Program-made: the position numbers and the translations under genes
Virus record (IMG/VR): IMGVR_UViG_3300050119_000309
Location: 1 to 36,933 of that record
Source: a virus
DNA length: 36,933 nucleotides
Strand: one strand, 5' to 3'
The notes under the pieces: model-generated
Database searches by the model: none
Seen by the model: only the letters and a program-made list of their open reading frames with translations
What the model was told of the DNA's origin: nothing
Part shown: piece after piece, positions 8,453-36,933 of the stretch
Layout of the letters: each line of letters starts with the position of its first letter
Position numbering within the stretch: the stretch's first letter is position 1

Positions 8453-8482
8453 AGGCGAGACCACTGAAAGCAGGCGAGACCA
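8453..8482 (+). repeat. Duplicated leader element with ribosome site
   Basis: The 11-base element AGGCGAGACCA occurs at 8453-8463 and 8472-8482, the second ending on the A of the ATG of the ArdC gene. The same element precedes the ATG at 9759 (9749-9759), and its first ten bases precede the ATG at 11356 (11345-11354). It includes an AGGCGAG stretch at Shine-Dalgarno distance, so it is likely the ribosome-binding leader shared by this operon. Confidence 0.55.
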
Positions 8483-9345
8483 TGACGAACACCCTTGACC
8501 GGTCGTCGACGTCGAAGACGGCCGACCGACTGAGCGAAGCACACGACCTACTGACGTCGGCCGTCGAACGGATGGCGACCGGCGACGACTGGCGTCGGAT
8601 GCTTGAGACGTCGGCGCGGTTCCACCAGTACAGCGCCAACAACGTCTTTCTCATCATGCTCCAAGCGCCCGACGCGACCAGGGTCGCGGGCTACCGGACC
8701 TGGCAGTCGCTCGGACGTCAGGTCCGGAAAGGTGAAAAGTCGATCCGGATCCTGGCACCTTGCAAGTACCGGACGAAGGACGTCGACGCGGTGACCGGCG
8801 AAGAGACCACCCGCGTCGGGATCCGAGGATTCACGACGGTCGGAGTCTTCGACATCGGCCAGACCGACGGCGAAGAGATCGCCGACGTTCGGCCGGTCCT
8901 GCTCGAAGGTCAAGCGCCGGAAGGACTGTGGGACCACGTAGCGGCCCAGGTCGCCGCGGCAGGGTTCACCCTTGAGCGTGGCGACTGCGAGGGCGCCAAC
9001 GGCTTTACCAGGTGGTCCGACAAGGTGGTCAGGGTCCGCGACGACGTCGACGACGCGCAGGCGGTCAAGACGCTGGTCCACGAGCTGGCCCACGTCATGC
9101 TTCACGACGGCCCGGGCGGCTGGTCCTGCCGCGGTCTCATGGAAGTCGAAGCGGAGTCTGTCGCCTATCTCGTCTGCCAGCTGGCGGGCATGACGACCGA
9201 CGCCTACAGCTTCGCCTACGTGGCCAGGTGGGCCCGGGATCCGATGCGGCCGGTCGATGACGTCCGGCTGTGCGCTGACCGCGTCATCAAAGCGGCCCGG
9301 GCCATCTACGCGCTCGGACTGGTCGAGATCGACGGGGAGGTCTGA
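8482..9345 (+). CDS. ardC: ArdC-type antirestriction protein with metallopeptidase domain
   Basis: This 287-residue protein has the two-part layout of ArdC. The N-terminal single-stranded-DNA-binding-like domain (about 18-125) includes FHQYSANNVFLIMLQAP, a YRTWQSLGRQVRKGEKSI segment and a beta-rich part. The C-terminal zinc peptidase domain has HELAH at 200-204 and a downstream Glu in EVEAESVAYL (221-230), the third ligand pattern of ImmA/IrrE-like peptidases. Known ArdC proteins protect incoming DNA from host restriction. As first gene of a promoter-controlled operon it fits an early anti-defence role. The ATG at 8482 follows the AGGCGAGACC element. Length and motifs are intact. Confidence 0.88.
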   Translation: MTNTLDRSSTSKTADRLSEAHDLLTSAVERMATGDDWRRMLETSARFHQYSANNVFLIMLQAPDATRVAGYRTWQSLGRQVRKGEKSIRILAPCKYRTKDVDAVTGEETTRVGIRGFTTVGVFDIGQTDGEEIADVRPVLLEGQAPEGLWDHVAAQVAAAGFTLERGDCEGANGFTRWSDKVVRVRDDVDDAQAVKTLVHELAHVMLHDGPGGWSCRGLMEVEAESVAYLVCQLAGMTTDAYSFAYVARWARDPMRPVDDVRLCADRVIKAARAIYALGLVEIDGEV

Positions 9346-15553: not shown

Positions 15554-15874
15554 TCAGACGGCGTGGGTCCCTTCGACGCCGCGCTCTTCCCGGGCCATCG
15601 TCCGGGCGTCGCACCAGTGCAGCGCCTCCTCGAGGTGCGTGATGGCCAGGGAATTCTCCCGGCACCGGAAGGGCCCGTCGTTGTAGAACTGCAGGCGCCC
15701 GATGGCCGCCTGGATGACCCCTTCGACGAAGGCGCCGTTGGGCTCGATCCGCTCCTCGCCCCGGCCGAGCGGGCCGTCCTGCCACTGGATCTCGATCCCG
15801 ATGCCGCCCGTGGTGCCGCCGGCCGGGCGTCCCTCGGCGTCCAGGCGGTGGTCCTGGTAGATGGGCTGCCTCAC
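15554..15874 (-). CDS. Acb2/Tad1-like cyclic-nucleotide sponge candidate
   Basis: This 106-residue protein has a C-terminal helical hairpin (about 67-103) with the pattern FRCRENSLAITHLEEALHW, then RT-x-x-x-REERGVEGTH. The pattern fits the Acb2/Tad1 hairpin family, small phage proteins known to bind signalling nucleotides of CBASS and/or Thoeris defence. The N-terminal 65 residues (Gly-rich, with a GIGIEIQWQDGP strand, then a helix) are also typical of this group. GTG 15874 lies in a GTGA overlap with the previous gene. The family fit is by eye; which ligand it binds, if any, is not known. The gene is the last of the replication/lysis transcript. Confidence 0.7.
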   Translation of the reverse strand: MRQPIYQDHRLDAEGRPAGGTTGGIGIEIQWQDGPLGRGEERIEPNGAFVEGVIQAAIGRLQFYNDGPFRCRENSLAITHLEEALHWCDARTMAREERGVEGTHAV

Positions 15875-16386
15875 GATCCCGGCTTCTCCTCGAAGCGCCG
15901 GCCGACCGAGACCGTGATGTTCCACCCGAAGGGGCCGTAGCTGCCCATCATGTGACAGGTCCACCCCTCGGCGTTGCCGATGGTCCCCGACGCCACCAGC
16001 TCGACGCCGGCCGTCTTGGCCGCGGCGAACTGCTGCAGGACGTTCGGGTCGGTGGACGGGTCCTCCAACTGCAGCTTGTCGATGTCCACGGCGTGGTTGA
16101 CCGGGCCGTGGGTCTGGGCCGCCCAGCTCGAGCTCGGGGCCGACTCCGACCCCTGGCCGCCGATGGTGACGGTGACGTGGGCCGTCGGGTAGGCCTGGCC
16201 CGATCCCTGCAGGGTGACGTCGACGGGCAGCACCGAGGTGACCGGGCCCAGCGCGTCGATGATGTCGATGGCCGCGGCCAGGCCGGCCGCGTACTGCCGG
16301 TCCTGCTTGATGTCGGGTTTGGTGAGTTTCACCTGGTCGGCGATCTCGCTGACCGCGGTGCAGTTGCCTTCGGCTTTCCAGGTCAC
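15871..16386 (-). CDS. Hypothetical protein upstream of the sponge candidate
   Basis: This 171-residue protein starts at GTG 16386 after GGAGGAGA, eight bases away. It has a helical N terminus (about 10-45), a beta-rich middle (VDVTLQGSG... AHVTVTIGG), a helix near 113-126 and a final beta segment with a Trp-Thr-Cys-His stretch (about 142-146) and Phe-Gly-Trp. No known family is recognised. Coupling with the Acb2/Tad1-like gene by GTGA overlap suggests shared regulation and possibly related function, a testable inference. Confidence 0.65.
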   Translation of the reverse strand: MTWKAEGNCTAVSEIADQVKLTKPDIKQDRQYAAGLAAAIDIIDALGPVTSVLPVDVTLQGSGQAYPTAHVTVTIGGQGSESAPSSSWAAQTHGPVNHAVDIDKLQLEDPSTDPNVLQQFAAAKTAGVELVASGTIGNAEGWTCHMMGSYGPFGWNITVSVGRRFEEKPGS

Positions 16387-16444: not shown

Positions 16445-17020
16445 TTACGTCCCCGCTGGCGGGGTCGCAACAAGGGTCTGCAGCCGGCCCAGGGCGCCCT
16501 GGACGTCGGCGATGGCCGTGCCCACGTCGGCCGAGACAGGGCCGGAGACGGGCGCCTGGGGGGCAGCGGCGGCGATCTGGCGGGCGGGGGCCGAGACACC
16601 CGACGGGTGGCGGACGACGAGGTTGGCCGCCTGGGCGGTGGCCACGGTCTTGTGGGCGCCCCGGTGGGTGATGACGTTCACGGCCAGGACCGCACCGGCG
16701 ACCACGGTGGCCACGGCCGGGATGAGGGCCTGGACGATGGACGGCTCGGTGAACCCAGGATGCACCGCGGCTATGACGCCGGCGGCGGCCGAGGCCAGCG
16801 CGGCCAGGTAGGCCTGCACCGACTGCGCGTCGGTCCAGGTGGGCAGGACGGGGGCGGATCCGGTCTCGGGCGGGGCGGGGTTCACGATGGTCATGCGGGC
16901 CTCCTGCTCGGCTCGAGCGGTCTCCCGTGAAACTACAGGGGTCGACGGGGCGAAGCCGGATTCCATGTACCGCCGGATGGTCTCCGGCTTCCGGTCCGGG
17001 AGCAAGACGCCCGGGCTCAC
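16445..17020 (-). CDS. Holin-like two-helix membrane protein, two possible starts
   Basis: The membrane part has two hydrophobic helices joined by a short Pro/Gly/Phe/Thr turn, then a Lys/Arg/His cluster and an Ala/Pro-rich tail ending in a helix. This matches small holins that open the membrane to the endolysin. Two starts are credible: GTG 17020 in a GTGA overlap with the nuclease gene (191 residues), and ATG 16894 (149 residues) with a strong AGGAGG six bases before it. Third-base GC is high between them, so both products may be made, as in dual-start holin systems. The endolysin lies separately at 31550. Confidence 0.62.
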   Translation of the reverse strand: MSPGVLLPDRKPETIRRYMESGFAPSTPVVSRETARAEQEARMTIVNPAPPETGSAPVLPTWTDAQSVQAYLAALASAAAGVIAAVHPGFTEPSIVQALIPAVATVVAGAVLAVNVITHRGAHKTVATAQAANLVVRHPSGVSAPARQIAAAAPQAPVSGPVSADVGTAIADVQGALGRLQTLVATPPAGT

Positions 17021-17343
17021 GGGGCCCGGAGCTCCGCCTCGATCGACCCGTCGAGCCAGTCCCGGGGCCGCCAGACGAAGACCCGGCCGGCCAGGGCCGA
17101 CTCGAAGCCGGCCAGCCAGGCGTCCTGGTCGATGGTGGTCCTCCCGGTCTCGCTCTTGAGCTCCACCACCAGGATCCGGGCCCGGCCCGGGTGGACCATG
17201 ACCAGGTCGGGGAAACCTTTCCCGTCGCCCTGGACGGCGGTGCGGTAGCCGGTCTCCGTGCGGGCCGGCCGGAAGTGGGCCGTCTTCCAGCACAGCGCCC
17301 GGCCGAGCTGGATCACCGCCTCGAGGAGATCGTCCTCCGACAT
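17017..17343 (-). CDS. VRR-NUC-type nuclease
   Basis: This 108-residue protein fits the small VRR-NUC nuclease fold: GDGKGFPDLVMV with Asp47, then a LVVELKSE strand with Glu61 and Lys63 (E-x-K core), and a Gln near 73. These are the metal-binding and catalytic positions of the PD-(D/E)XK superfamily as used in phage resolvase-like enzymes. A role in trimming or resolving replication intermediates fits its position between replication and lysis genes. The ATG at 17343 lacks a clear ribosome site. Confidence 0.78.
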   Translation of the reverse strand: MSEDDLLEAVIQLGRALCWKTAHFRPARTETGYRTAVQGDGKGFPDLVMVHPGRARILVVELKSETGRTTIDQDAWLAGFESALAGRVFVWRPRDWLDGSIEAELRAP

Positions 17344-17369
17344 GGTGGCGGCCAGGCCGGCGGGTTTTG

Positions 17370-17708
17370 TCACGCAGAGCGAGCAAGACGGGCCCGGGCC
17401 TCCCGGAGCGCGGAGCGGGCCTGGGGCCTGGTTGCGACCTTCGGTCCGGGGGGTGCGGCGGCGGGGGTCCGGTACTTCGAGACGGCCTTCAAGGCCTCCC
17501 AGATCACCGGGCAACCGGGGCGGTAGGTCGGGTGGTGGCCACCCTGGGCCAGCCGGCGGATCGCGGTGTTCCACTCGGTGAGCGAGACGTGCTCGGTCAT
17601 GGCGTAGAGCTCCCGCTCCTGGGCGTCGGTCAGGGTCGGCGATGGGCGCCTCGAGGGCCAGAGCGCCTCGAGCTGCTCCATGGCGGCGACGGCCTCAGTG
17701 GGGGTCAT
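17370..17708 (-). CDS. Replication accessory protein, possibly helicase-loader-like
   Basis: This 112-residue protein overlaps the replisome-organiser gene by 14 bases. The first 85 residues are helical with a Trp-Pro-Ser turn and a Trp-Asn-Thr-Ala-Ile-Arg-Arg-Leu helix; the last 25 are Ala/Arg rich. Size, helical pattern and position after a replication organiser resemble phage helicase-loader or loader-inhibitor proteins, but no specific motif proves it. Read as a replication-block accessory protein with low confidence for the exact role. Confidence 0.55.
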   Translation of the reverse strand: MTPTEAVAAMEQLEALWPSRRPSPTLTDAQERELYAMTEHVSLTEWNTAIRRLAQGGHHPTYRPGCPVIWEALKAVSKYRTPAAAPPGPKVATRPQARSALREARARLARSA

Positions 17709-19840: not shown

Positions 19841-22800
19841 TTACTGGATGGTGGGCCCGTACGGCGGGGTGATGAGGTTCGACGGGGCGATGGTGGCCAT
19901 GGAACCATTCCAGTAGCCGGCCTTGATCGCCGAGTCGAAGGCCCACTGGCGCAGCGCCGACGGCTGGACCATCCACCCCTGGTAAGGCACGTAGCCGTAC
20001 TGCATCAGGGCTTTCCACGTCGGGCTGTTGGGGTTCGGGTCGTTCAGGGCCGCGGTGGCGGCGTCGCGGGCCACGTTGTAACGGTCGATCTCGGTCCGGG
20101 CGAGGGTCTGGGGGATCGAGATCTGCTGGGGGATCCACGGCACGCCGAGGGCGTCGCCGATGGCCTGCTTGTAGGCGTTCGGATCCGACTGCTTCGCGTA
20201 GCGGGCGTAGCTGGTGAGGGACAGGGCGGTCTCGACGGCGCCGGCCTGGGGGACGTAGCCGGCGATGCCGTTGTCGAGCACGGAGCTCCATGTCGTCGGC
20301 GTCGGCTGTTCGTTGCCGTAGAAGGAGTCGAGCGTCATCGTCGGATAGAGATCCTCCGGGCCGCCGGTGGCCGGGTTGATACCGAGGGCGGGGATCACCA
20401 CCGACTGGATGGCCGGGTTCAGGTCGCCCAGGAAGCCGGCCATGGTGAAGACGTCGGAGACCGAGCGCAGCGGGTCGAGCTGGCGGAGGTCGACGGCGGT
20501 GACGTTGCCCGCCGCGTCGATGCCCCCGATCTGGAAGAGGTACATCATCGACTGCGGGATCCCGCTATTCCAGTCCTCCCACTCCTGGTTGGTCATCTGC
20601 GACAGCAGCGCCGCCCGGTACGGGTGGTCGATCGGGTAGGTGGCCACGTACTGAGCGATGTGCTTGGTCCAGCCGTAGAACGGCATCACGTAGCGGATGA
20701 TCGACCGCTCGAGGGGGGTCATGGCATCCATGTCGGCGAAGACCTTCAAGGCGAACCGGATCCCGGCGTCGACGTCGTCGTCCTTGGCCTTGCCGATCAG
20801 GTAGGCCATCGACCGGAGCATGTTGGCCCCGAAGCTGGCGAAGGTGAGGCCGGCGTCCATGCCCCGCTTGGCCATCGAGTCGCGCAGTAGCCCGGCCTGC
20901 TTCTTGCCCACCGCGTAGTTGAATTCGTTGGTCAGGTGTTGCGGATCCGCCTCGGCCACCTCATGGGGGAGGCCGAGGGGCATCCCTTGGGTCTCGCCCC
21001 GCTTCTCGGCCCGGGTCTGCAGCCAGTCGAAGACGGGCTTGAACATCCCGCCCTTCTCCTGCATGTGGCGGAGCAACCCGTCGGAGTCCTGGATCATCAT
21101 GCCCAGGGCGGCCGGGAGTACTCGAGCCATCGACAGCGGGTCCGATCGCATCAGCAGCAGCATCGACCCACCGCCCCAGATGTGGACCTGGTAGCGCGGC
21201 GAGAAGTTGAGCAGGGTGTACCGGAAGAGTCGGGTGGCTCCGCCGTAGCCCTTGGCCAGAACGTTGTCGGGGCCCCGCAGCGCCTTGTAGGTGGCGTCGA
21301 GGGACTGCTTCACCGCGATGGGGACGAGGATCGGCTGGGTCGAGCTGGCGCCGGTCAACTCCGAGCTCTTGCGGGGGAAGTACGACGTCGGGTCGAGCTC
21401 GCCATAGTTGGCCTTCTGCCAGGCGTCGATGGCGTGGCGCTGGAGGAGAGGGTCCTCCGGGAGCTTCACCACCTGCATCGCCTGTTTGACGGCGTCGTCG
21501 ACCGTCGTCCCCCACCGGGTCACGATCCCGTGCTCGCCGTAGAACATCTCATGGGCGGCCTGCTCTTCGACATCCTCGAGCTGCTTACGCGTAAGACCGA
21601 TCACCGGCTCGTAGACGGCCGACGGATTGAACCGGGCCCGGCTCTTGGCCGAGCGGGTGACCGAGATCCGCTCCGGCGCGCTGGTGACGCCCAGGCGCTC
21701 GATGTCGCCGCCCCGGCTCGAGTAGACGAACTTGGGCGACAGGCCGGCGGCCCGCTCGGCCGTGAGCTCCTTCAAGGCGCTGTTCACGATCTTCGACATC
21801 TCGCCCGGGGTGATGATCTGGGCGAAGGTCTCGCCCTTCCAGATCCCGTTGGCCACCTGAAAGCCGAGCAGGGCCATGTCCGACTCGGTGACGTCCTTCC
21901 CGTCCAGCGCGGTGAGGAGGCGGTCCTGGACCAGCTCCGCCACCCGGGGCGTGAACCGGGCCTCGGGGAACTTGTCGATCGACTTGGTCAGAGCTGCTCG
22001 AGATCTCGAGAAGTTATCGAGCGCCCGCTTCGTCGACGGCCGCAGCGCGTATTGCAGAGTGGCCCGGGCCCGGCCGACGTCGGGGAGCAGAGCCGACAGC
22101 TCGGCCGAGCTCCGGGCGTACGGCGACTTCATGGTCCGCTCGATGGTGGCCAGCATCCGCTCGGCGTCCTCGAAGCGACCGGTGGAGATGGCCGCCTTCA
22201 AGTGGTTGAAGAGACCGCCCGGGCCCATCAGCCGGCCCACCCGCATCACCTCCTCGCGCTTCCACCGGAGGTTCTGCGGCTTGCCCCCTCGGCGGAGCAG
22301 CTCGGCCACGGCGTTCGGATCGTTCGGGTCGACCTGGTGGGCCCCGACCGGCTTGGTCGGCGGGAACTGCCGGCGCACGGCCAGCTCGTCCTTCCCGTCG
22401 ACGCCGATGAACGGCGTGGCCTTGTCGAGCACGGCGCTGTTCACGTAGTTGAGGACGGCCTGGGCCGCCCCGGGCGGATCCCGGGGGATGTCGTTGCCGG
22501 TCAGGTCGGCGAGTCCTGCGATGACCCGGTCGGCGGTGGCGGTTTTCTTCAAGAAGTCGTTGTGGCGGGCGAGCACGGTGGCATCGGTGCCGGAGGTGGC
22601 CCGCACCTCTTCGTGTCCGTCTCGAGGGTCGGTGATGGTGCCGAGACGGTTGCGGGCCAAATCCTTCTGCTTCTCGATCTCGACCAGGTTGTCGTAGTCG
22701 CGGAAGGCGTTCTCGAGCTTGGCCTGCTCGCCGGGGTCGAGCCTCCCCGCGTAGGCCGTCTTCCAGTCGTCGCGGTAGTGGGTGGCGATGTAGGCGAAGT

Positions 22801-23821
22801 CCTTGACCTCCTTCGCCGACGTGAGGCCGTTGCGGGAGTAGAAGTCGCCGATGTCCTTCACCACCTCGACGCCGGCCTCGGCCGCCTGGCGCCGACCCAT
22901 CTGCACCACCCGGCCGAGCGACGCCGCTACGGGGCCGAGCTGGCCCTTGGCCGCCTCCGTCGTCCGCTTCGACAGGTAGGCGCCGACGGTGTCCTCGCCG
23001 AAGGGGGCGTCGAACACGATGCGCCGCAGCGCGCCGATTAGCCCGTGGTTGTTGGTGGCCAACGCCCGGCGTACGGCCGATCCGATGGCGTCGCCGGCGG
23101 CGGCCCGGGCCGCCTGGGCCTGGGTCGAGATGTCGCTCGGGTGGTACTTGGCCGCCTCGTCGATGGCGGCGGTCGACGCGTCGTCGAGGCCGGCTCGAGA
23201 CAGGGCCCGGGCCGCGCTGCCGCCCACCCGGAGCTCCGGCACGATGTCGAGCAGCGCGGTGAGGGGATGCTCGGCCAGTTGCGAAAAGCCGGCCTTGCCC
23301 CGCTCGGCGGTGGCCACGTCGGCCAGGCCGGGGATGATGGCCGACAGCAGCGGCGAGCGCCCGGCCGTCTGGGCGAAGGAGTGGTAACCGCCCATCGTCT
23401 GCTCCGAGGCCGGGGCGTTGATCGACTTGAAGGGATCCTCGAGCACGGCCGGATCCCGCCACAGCGCCTCGATCTCATGGGGCCCGTTCATCGGGTGGAT
23501 GACGTCGGAGATCCCCTTCTTGAGCAGTCCGAACAGCCCGACGCCGATGTCCTTGGCATCGGTGCCGACGTAGCCCGGGATCTTCGATGCACTGAATGGT
23601 GCATTTGCCGCCGGGGTGATGGGGCTGCCCTGGCTCGCCGATTGGATGGCCGCCAGGGCCTCGGCCTTCGAGAGCTGGTAGCTCGTCCCCGACGCCAGGC
23701 GCGAATAGTCGAGGTTGTAAACCTGCGCCACCGCCGGCGTCGACAGGTTGTTCGCCTTGGCGTACTGATACAGGTCACGCCACTTGGTGTTGAAGCCCGA
23801 CAGCTCCGAGCTGTTCGCCAC
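19841..23821 (-). CDS. Large internal virion (ejection-type) protein
   Basis: This 1326-residue protein is the largest gene product. It is mainly helical, with a Ser/Ala-rich N-terminal part, central helices rich in Glu, Arg and Lys, and a C-terminal region with PFYGW near residue 1047. This 'R-Y-V-x-P-F-Y-x-W' pattern recurs in large polyvalent or internal virion proteins of phages. A Gly/Leu/Met-rich hydrophobic stretch lies near residue 890. It follows two Ala/Gln-rich proteins and the adaptor, as ejection proteins do in podoviruses. A transglycosylase motif is not evident. The ATG at 23821 is six bases from the upstream stop. Confidence 0.72.
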   Translation of the reverse strand: MANSSELSGFNTKWRDLYQYAKANNLSTPAVAQVYNLDYSRLASGTSYQLSKAEALAAIQSASQGSPITPAANAPFSASKIPGYVGTDAKDIGVGLFGLLKKGISDVIHPMNGPHEIEALWRDPAVLEDPFKSINAPASEQTMGGYHSFAQTAGRSPLLSAIIPGLADVATAERGKAGFSQLAEHPLTALLDIVPELRVGGSAARALSRAGLDDASTAAIDEAAKYHPSDISTQAQAARAAAGDAIGSAVRRALATNNHGLIGALRRIVFDAPFGEDTVGAYLSKRTTEAAKGQLGPVAASLGRVVQMGRRQAAEAGVEVVKDIGDFYSRNGLTSAKEVKDFAYIATHYRDDWKTAYAGRLDPGEQAKLENAFRDYDNLVEIEKQKDLARNRLGTITDPRDGHEEVRATSGTDATVLARHNDFLKKTATADRVIAGLADLTGNDIPRDPPGAAQAVLNYVNSAVLDKATPFIGVDGKDELAVRRQFPPTKPVGAHQVDPNDPNAVAELLRRGGKPQNLRWKREEVMRVGRLMGPGGLFNHLKAAISTGRFEDAERMLATIERTMKSPYARSSAELSALLPDVGRARATLQYALRPSTKRALDNFSRSRAALTKSIDKFPEARFTPRVAELVQDRLLTALDGKDVTESDMALLGFQVANGIWKGETFAQIITPGEMSKIVNSALKELTAERAAGLSPKFVYSSRGGDIERLGVTSAPERISVTRSAKSRARFNPSAVYEPVIGLTRKQLEDVEEQAAHEMFYGEHGIVTRWGTTVDDAVKQAMQVVKLPEDPLLQRHAIDAWQKANYGELDPTSYFPRKSSELTGASSTQPILVPIAVKQSLDATYKALRGPDNVLAKGYGGATRLFRYTLLNFSPRYQVHIWGGGSMLLLMRSDPLSMARVLPAALGMMIQDSDGLLRHMQEKGGMFKPVFDWLQTRAEKRGETQGMPLGLPHEVAEADPQHLTNEFNYAVGKKQAGLLRDSMAKRGMDAGLTFASFGANMLRSMAYLIGKAKDDDVDAGIRFALKVFADMDAMTPLERSIIRYVMPFYGWTKHIAQYVATYPIDHPYRAALLSQMTNQEWEDWNSGIPQSMMYLFQIGGIDAAGNVTAVDLRQLDPLRSVSDVFTMAGFLGDLNPAIQSVVIPALGINPATGGPEDLYPTMTLDSFYGNEQPTPTTWSSVLDNGIAGYVPQAGAVETALSLTSYARYAKQSDPNAYKQAIGDALGVPWIPQQISIPQTLARTEIDRYNVARDAATAALNDPNPNSPTWKALMQYGYVPYQGWMVQPSALRQWAFDSAIKAGYWNGSMATIAPSNLITPPYGPTIQ

Positions 23822-36837: not shown

Positions 36838-36933
<96 letters not shown>

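Follow-up and report, generated by a model that had tools for sequence, protein, structure and literature searches.

A predicted Tad1-type signal sponge of a short-form subfamily, encoded near ArdC in a variable block of a viral contig

The stretch of DNA considered here (the window) is a viral contig of 36,933 nucleotides that carries genes for portal, large terminase, capsid, and endolysin. On its minus strand, positions 15554..15874 hold an open frame of 106 codons plus stop, running from GTG to TGA, and that interval is exactly one gene, predicted to encode a Tad1-type sponge. Two motifs quoted in an earlier, sequence-only reading of this DNA, CRENSLAITHLEEALHW and RGVEGTH, are both found in the minus-strand frame without a mismatch; the plus strand of the same interval has neither, nor anything else of note. 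The GTG at 15874 shares four nucleotides (GTGA) with the stop of the upstream gene (15871..16386, minus strand; 171 aa from a GTG at 16386, in a frame open to 16599), a gene for which no relatives were detected. The sequence GAGGAG (15886..15891, minus strand), which resembles a Shine-Dalgarno site, lies 11 nt before the Tad1 GTG, and homologues begin at the position equivalent to 15874. A longer form of 136 aa, from GTG 15964, was rejected, because 15874 is where homologues start and the codons gained would run into the upstream gene. A scan for promoters and terminators found none.

Where the gene differs from its relatives, the change is most often in the third position of a codon (fractions of about 0.25, 0.2, and 0.55 at positions 1, 2, and 3), and comparison with five relatives by the NG86 method gives dN of about 0.3 against dS of 1.0-1.4, for a dN/dS of about 0.2-0.3. 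Since differences are biased towards third positions and dN is less than dS, the gene at 15554-15874 is real and conserved, under purifying selection.

The only Pfam family matched by the protein is Acb2_Tad1_hairpin (PF24729), at residues 67-87 (E 1e-5), with a score of 26.1 bits that lies just under the curated cut-off of 27. The profile search proposed by the sequence-only reading thus did not come back empty. Similarity to solved proteins is much stronger: the single sequence, run by phmmer against PDB, matches Tad1 chains with E values between 6e-14 and 1.3e-9 (8kbb at 6e-14, 7uav at 1e-9). With a profile built from 63 relatives, 8kbb reaches E 3e-17, and every chain below E 1 is of the Tad1 family. 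The phmmer search also found phiKZ gp184 (8y6v), a Tad1-family chain, matched through its C-terminal hairpin at E 3e-5. Among PHROGs, the match is to phrog_2428 (E 4e-21), whose function is unknown, and a PADLOC search gave no match.

The hairpin model of Pfam covers Acb2 as well as Tad1, and the protein might on that ground be an Acb2-type sponge, built of a hairpin preceded by a short N-terminal helix, whose only ligands are cyclic oligonucleotides. The fold does not favor this. An AlphaFold2 model from an alignment of 63 rows (mean pLDDT 87.5) predicts an N-terminal part (15674..15874, residues 1-67) with three beta-strands (residues 5-11, 17-24, and 27-31) and helix 1 (50-66), in which the motifs PxGG, WQxGPL, and EPNGAFVE are conserved, followed by the second helix of the hairpin (72-98) and a C-terminal tail (both within 15557..15661, residues 72-106: CRENSLAITHLEEALHW ... 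RTMAREERGVEGTHAV). A beta-sheet followed by two long C-terminal helices is the arrangement of Tad1, whose N-terminal antiparallel sheet has been described with four strands (PMC12043709) where three are predicted here. Acb2 has the short helix and hairpin but no sheet (PMC12043709). When the model was compared by Foldseek with PDB, 20 chains were matched at E <= 0.001, every one of them Tad1, and the next unrelated chain appeared at E 0.4. Alignment by VIA-align to CbTad1 and CmTad1 superposed 98-100 residues at 2.2-2.7 A with Z scores of 9.8-10.0 (the best, with Z 10.0, covered 100 residues at 2.7 A), while unrelated helical hairpins reached a Z of 6.8 or less and were matched in their helices only. 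Likewise, the phmmer search of PDB sequences brought up no Acb2 chain as far as E 10, and despite the hairpin model held in common with the Acb2 proteins of PaP2 and PaMx33 (gp24), it is very improbable that the protein is of that type. What the sequence-only reading had put forward as an Acb2/Tad1-like sponge candidate therefore holds as to family, by profile, sequence, and fold, and as to the hairpin, which the model shows joined to a beta-sheet as in Tad1; it is the Acb2 half of the name that falls away.

The kinship with Tad1 is closest in the C-terminal half. The Tad1 of Bacillus phage SBSphiJ7 (OM982674), a protein of 142 aa that has been genetically tested (PMC12043709), is 56% identical over residues 46-104, and the window protein has in common with it and with Firmicutes Tad1 the motifs CREN..AIT.LEEAL.W, RT..RE.RGVEGTH, QxGP, and NG. 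A comparison by hhalign of profiles from the short-form subfamily to which the window protein belongs and from the SBSphiJ7-type subfamily aligned their C-terminal 76-80 residues at E 1.4e-31, and both subfamilies retain N74, R91, R95, E101, and G102. CmTad1 (8kbb) and CbTad1 (7uav, 8smd, 8kbf), which the predicted fold matches, are 28-35% identical to the window protein in structural alignments and have the same hairpin asparagine and two arginines: N74, R91, and R95 correspond to N93, R110, and R114 of CbTad1 (chain count), and Tyr64 stands in place of F83. We take these four CbTad1 residues to be among those that contact gcADPR.

The N-terminal half is another matter. The Tad1 proteins that have been tested are 123-142 aa in length, as against 106 aa here, and the half that is shorter is the N-terminal one, weakly alignable to that of SBSphiJ7 and, over residues 1-27, aligned unconvincingly with characterized Tad1 in general. 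In a tree of Tad1 proteins, built from few columns and weak at its inner forks, a branch with 100/100 support separates the short form (together with two variants from Actinomycetes MAGs) from the form found in Firmicutes and SBSphiJ7. By sequence, then, the window protein falls in a well-supported subfamily of Tad1 in which the N-terminal half is shorter; the subfamily consensus reads GNPAGG...WQNGPLGRG..R.EPNGAFVE...CRENA.AIT.LEEAL.W...RT.DRE.R.VEGTH. One scan turned up at least 126 viral contigs that encode relatives of the short form, and another at least 183; no experimentally tested member of the branch was found. The branch is large and coherent, and it is partly missed by the curated threshold of Pfam; 37 of 63 members match PF24729 at E <= 0.001.

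Could the subfamily hold a signal different from those tested for Tad1? The loops of the Tad1 pocket come partly from the N-terminal half (PMC12043709), so that a half that differs, in a subfamily set apart at 100/100, may be counted in favor of this idea, along with the tyrosine at the position of CbTad1 F83. The strong conservation of the hairpin residues speaks against it. We regard such a retuning, which would be a special case of the Tad1-type sponge and would apply to the short form as a whole (at least 183 viral contigs), as rather unlikely. If it were true, the subfamily would mark a nucleotide defense signal in poorly studied hosts.

The surroundings of the gene bear on what it is for. 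The closest relatives of the phage have capsids 72-80% identical to its own and structural genes in common with it, but the longest sister contig (37.9 kb, a record that may be incomplete) lacks the Tad1 gene and also the block around it, 6.4-19.7 kb, apart from a brief stretch that matches an HTH protein. About 6 kb from the Tad1 gene, in the same variable block, lies an ArdC-type anti-restriction gene (8482-9345, plus strand), as the sequence-only reading had maintained, with an ArdcN domain at 51.5 bits (Pfam cut-off 22.6) and a marginal Peptidase_M78 (IrrE-like) domain. Since the block is not common to the sister phages, the Tad1 gene is most likely an accessory anti-defense gene, carried along with ArdC. 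Also near it is a gene for a VRR-NUC domain nuclease resembling Holliday junction resolvases (17017-17574, minus strand). A conserved partner gene for Tad1 was sought and rejected: the neighbors of homologues are diverse, and only the terminase recurs across unrelated loci. At 12 loci (for example L058, 5872-7914), in phages otherwise unrelated, the Tad1-like gene is found just upstream of the large terminase.

That proximity to terminase, and the occurrence of some homologues in phage records with annotations as structural proteins, might suggest that the Tad1 fold serves here in some role other than sequestering signals, perhaps as a component of the virion. Against this, the phiKZ gp184 protein, from a jumbo phage, longer (230 aa) than the window protein but similar in its C-terminal hairpin, is a virion protein of the Tad1 family that is injected together with the DNA, and the literature describes the phiKZ Tad1 as a sponge delivered by injection that counters CBASS and Thoeris. 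Furthermore, the window protein retains the residues conserved in tested Tad1, and the sister contig lacks the gene even though it has the structural genes in common. A role apart from signal sequestration is thus unlikely, if not so improbable as the Acb2 type.

The best explanation remains that the gene encodes a Tad1-type sponge, to which we assign a probability of roughly 85%; homology and the predicted fold come from the searches and the model, and the sponge function is inferred from the family. By analogy with Tad1 (PMC12043709, PMC11025887), and judging from its family, the protein would assemble into dimers and then hexamers (trimers of dimers), with pockets between hexamer protomers that may hold gcADPR and/or cyclic nucleotides. 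During infection it would bind nucleotide alarm signals of the host and hold them without cleavage. The signals in question would be those of Thoeris (1''-2' or 1''-3' glycocyclic ADP-ribose), of CBASS (cyclic di- and trinucleotides), or of both. With its signal sequestered, the effector would never be switched on, and the infected cell would not abort the infection. The gene would then be a counter-defense added to a phage already carrying ArdC. Tad1 sponges give away the alarm molecules in use among hosts, and members of this branch could therefore show the reach of signal-based immunity in uncultured hosts.

Which host this may be is not indicated by the relatives of capsid, terminase, and endolysin, which were uninformative. 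The idea that the virus is an actinophage gained no support: capsid and terminase have only distant relatives among named phages (for capsid, the closest are Myxococcus phages, about 31% identical), and no prophage relative of the capsid was found in genome contigs. Tad1-like genes of both forms are present in genome contigs of many bacterial lineages.

Some Tad1-like proteins depart further from the known forms. In the two Actinomycetes MAGs (L088, 5992-6429; L090, 5983-6390), an insert of about 30-40 residues rich in Cys and His follows the GPL loop and precedes the (E)PNGAFVE motif; it may bind metal and lie near the ligand pocket. A shorter Cys-rich insert occurs in L094, while one viral scan gave no further case of a Tad1 with a Cys/His insert. 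Five viral contigs (L115-L119), four of them with 61-69% GC, carry yet another form of Tad1, and several of these have an N-terminal motif of the type GxGGAxHxY, resembling GPGGAYHEYVI of CbTad1. Elsewhere in the window, a protein of 1326 aa (19841-23821, minus strand) that has no match in PHROGs and is 34% identical to a protein of the sister contig is perhaps a large virion protein, and the long final stretch of the window (36843-36933) consists almost entirely of G, probably an artefact of sequencing or assembly.
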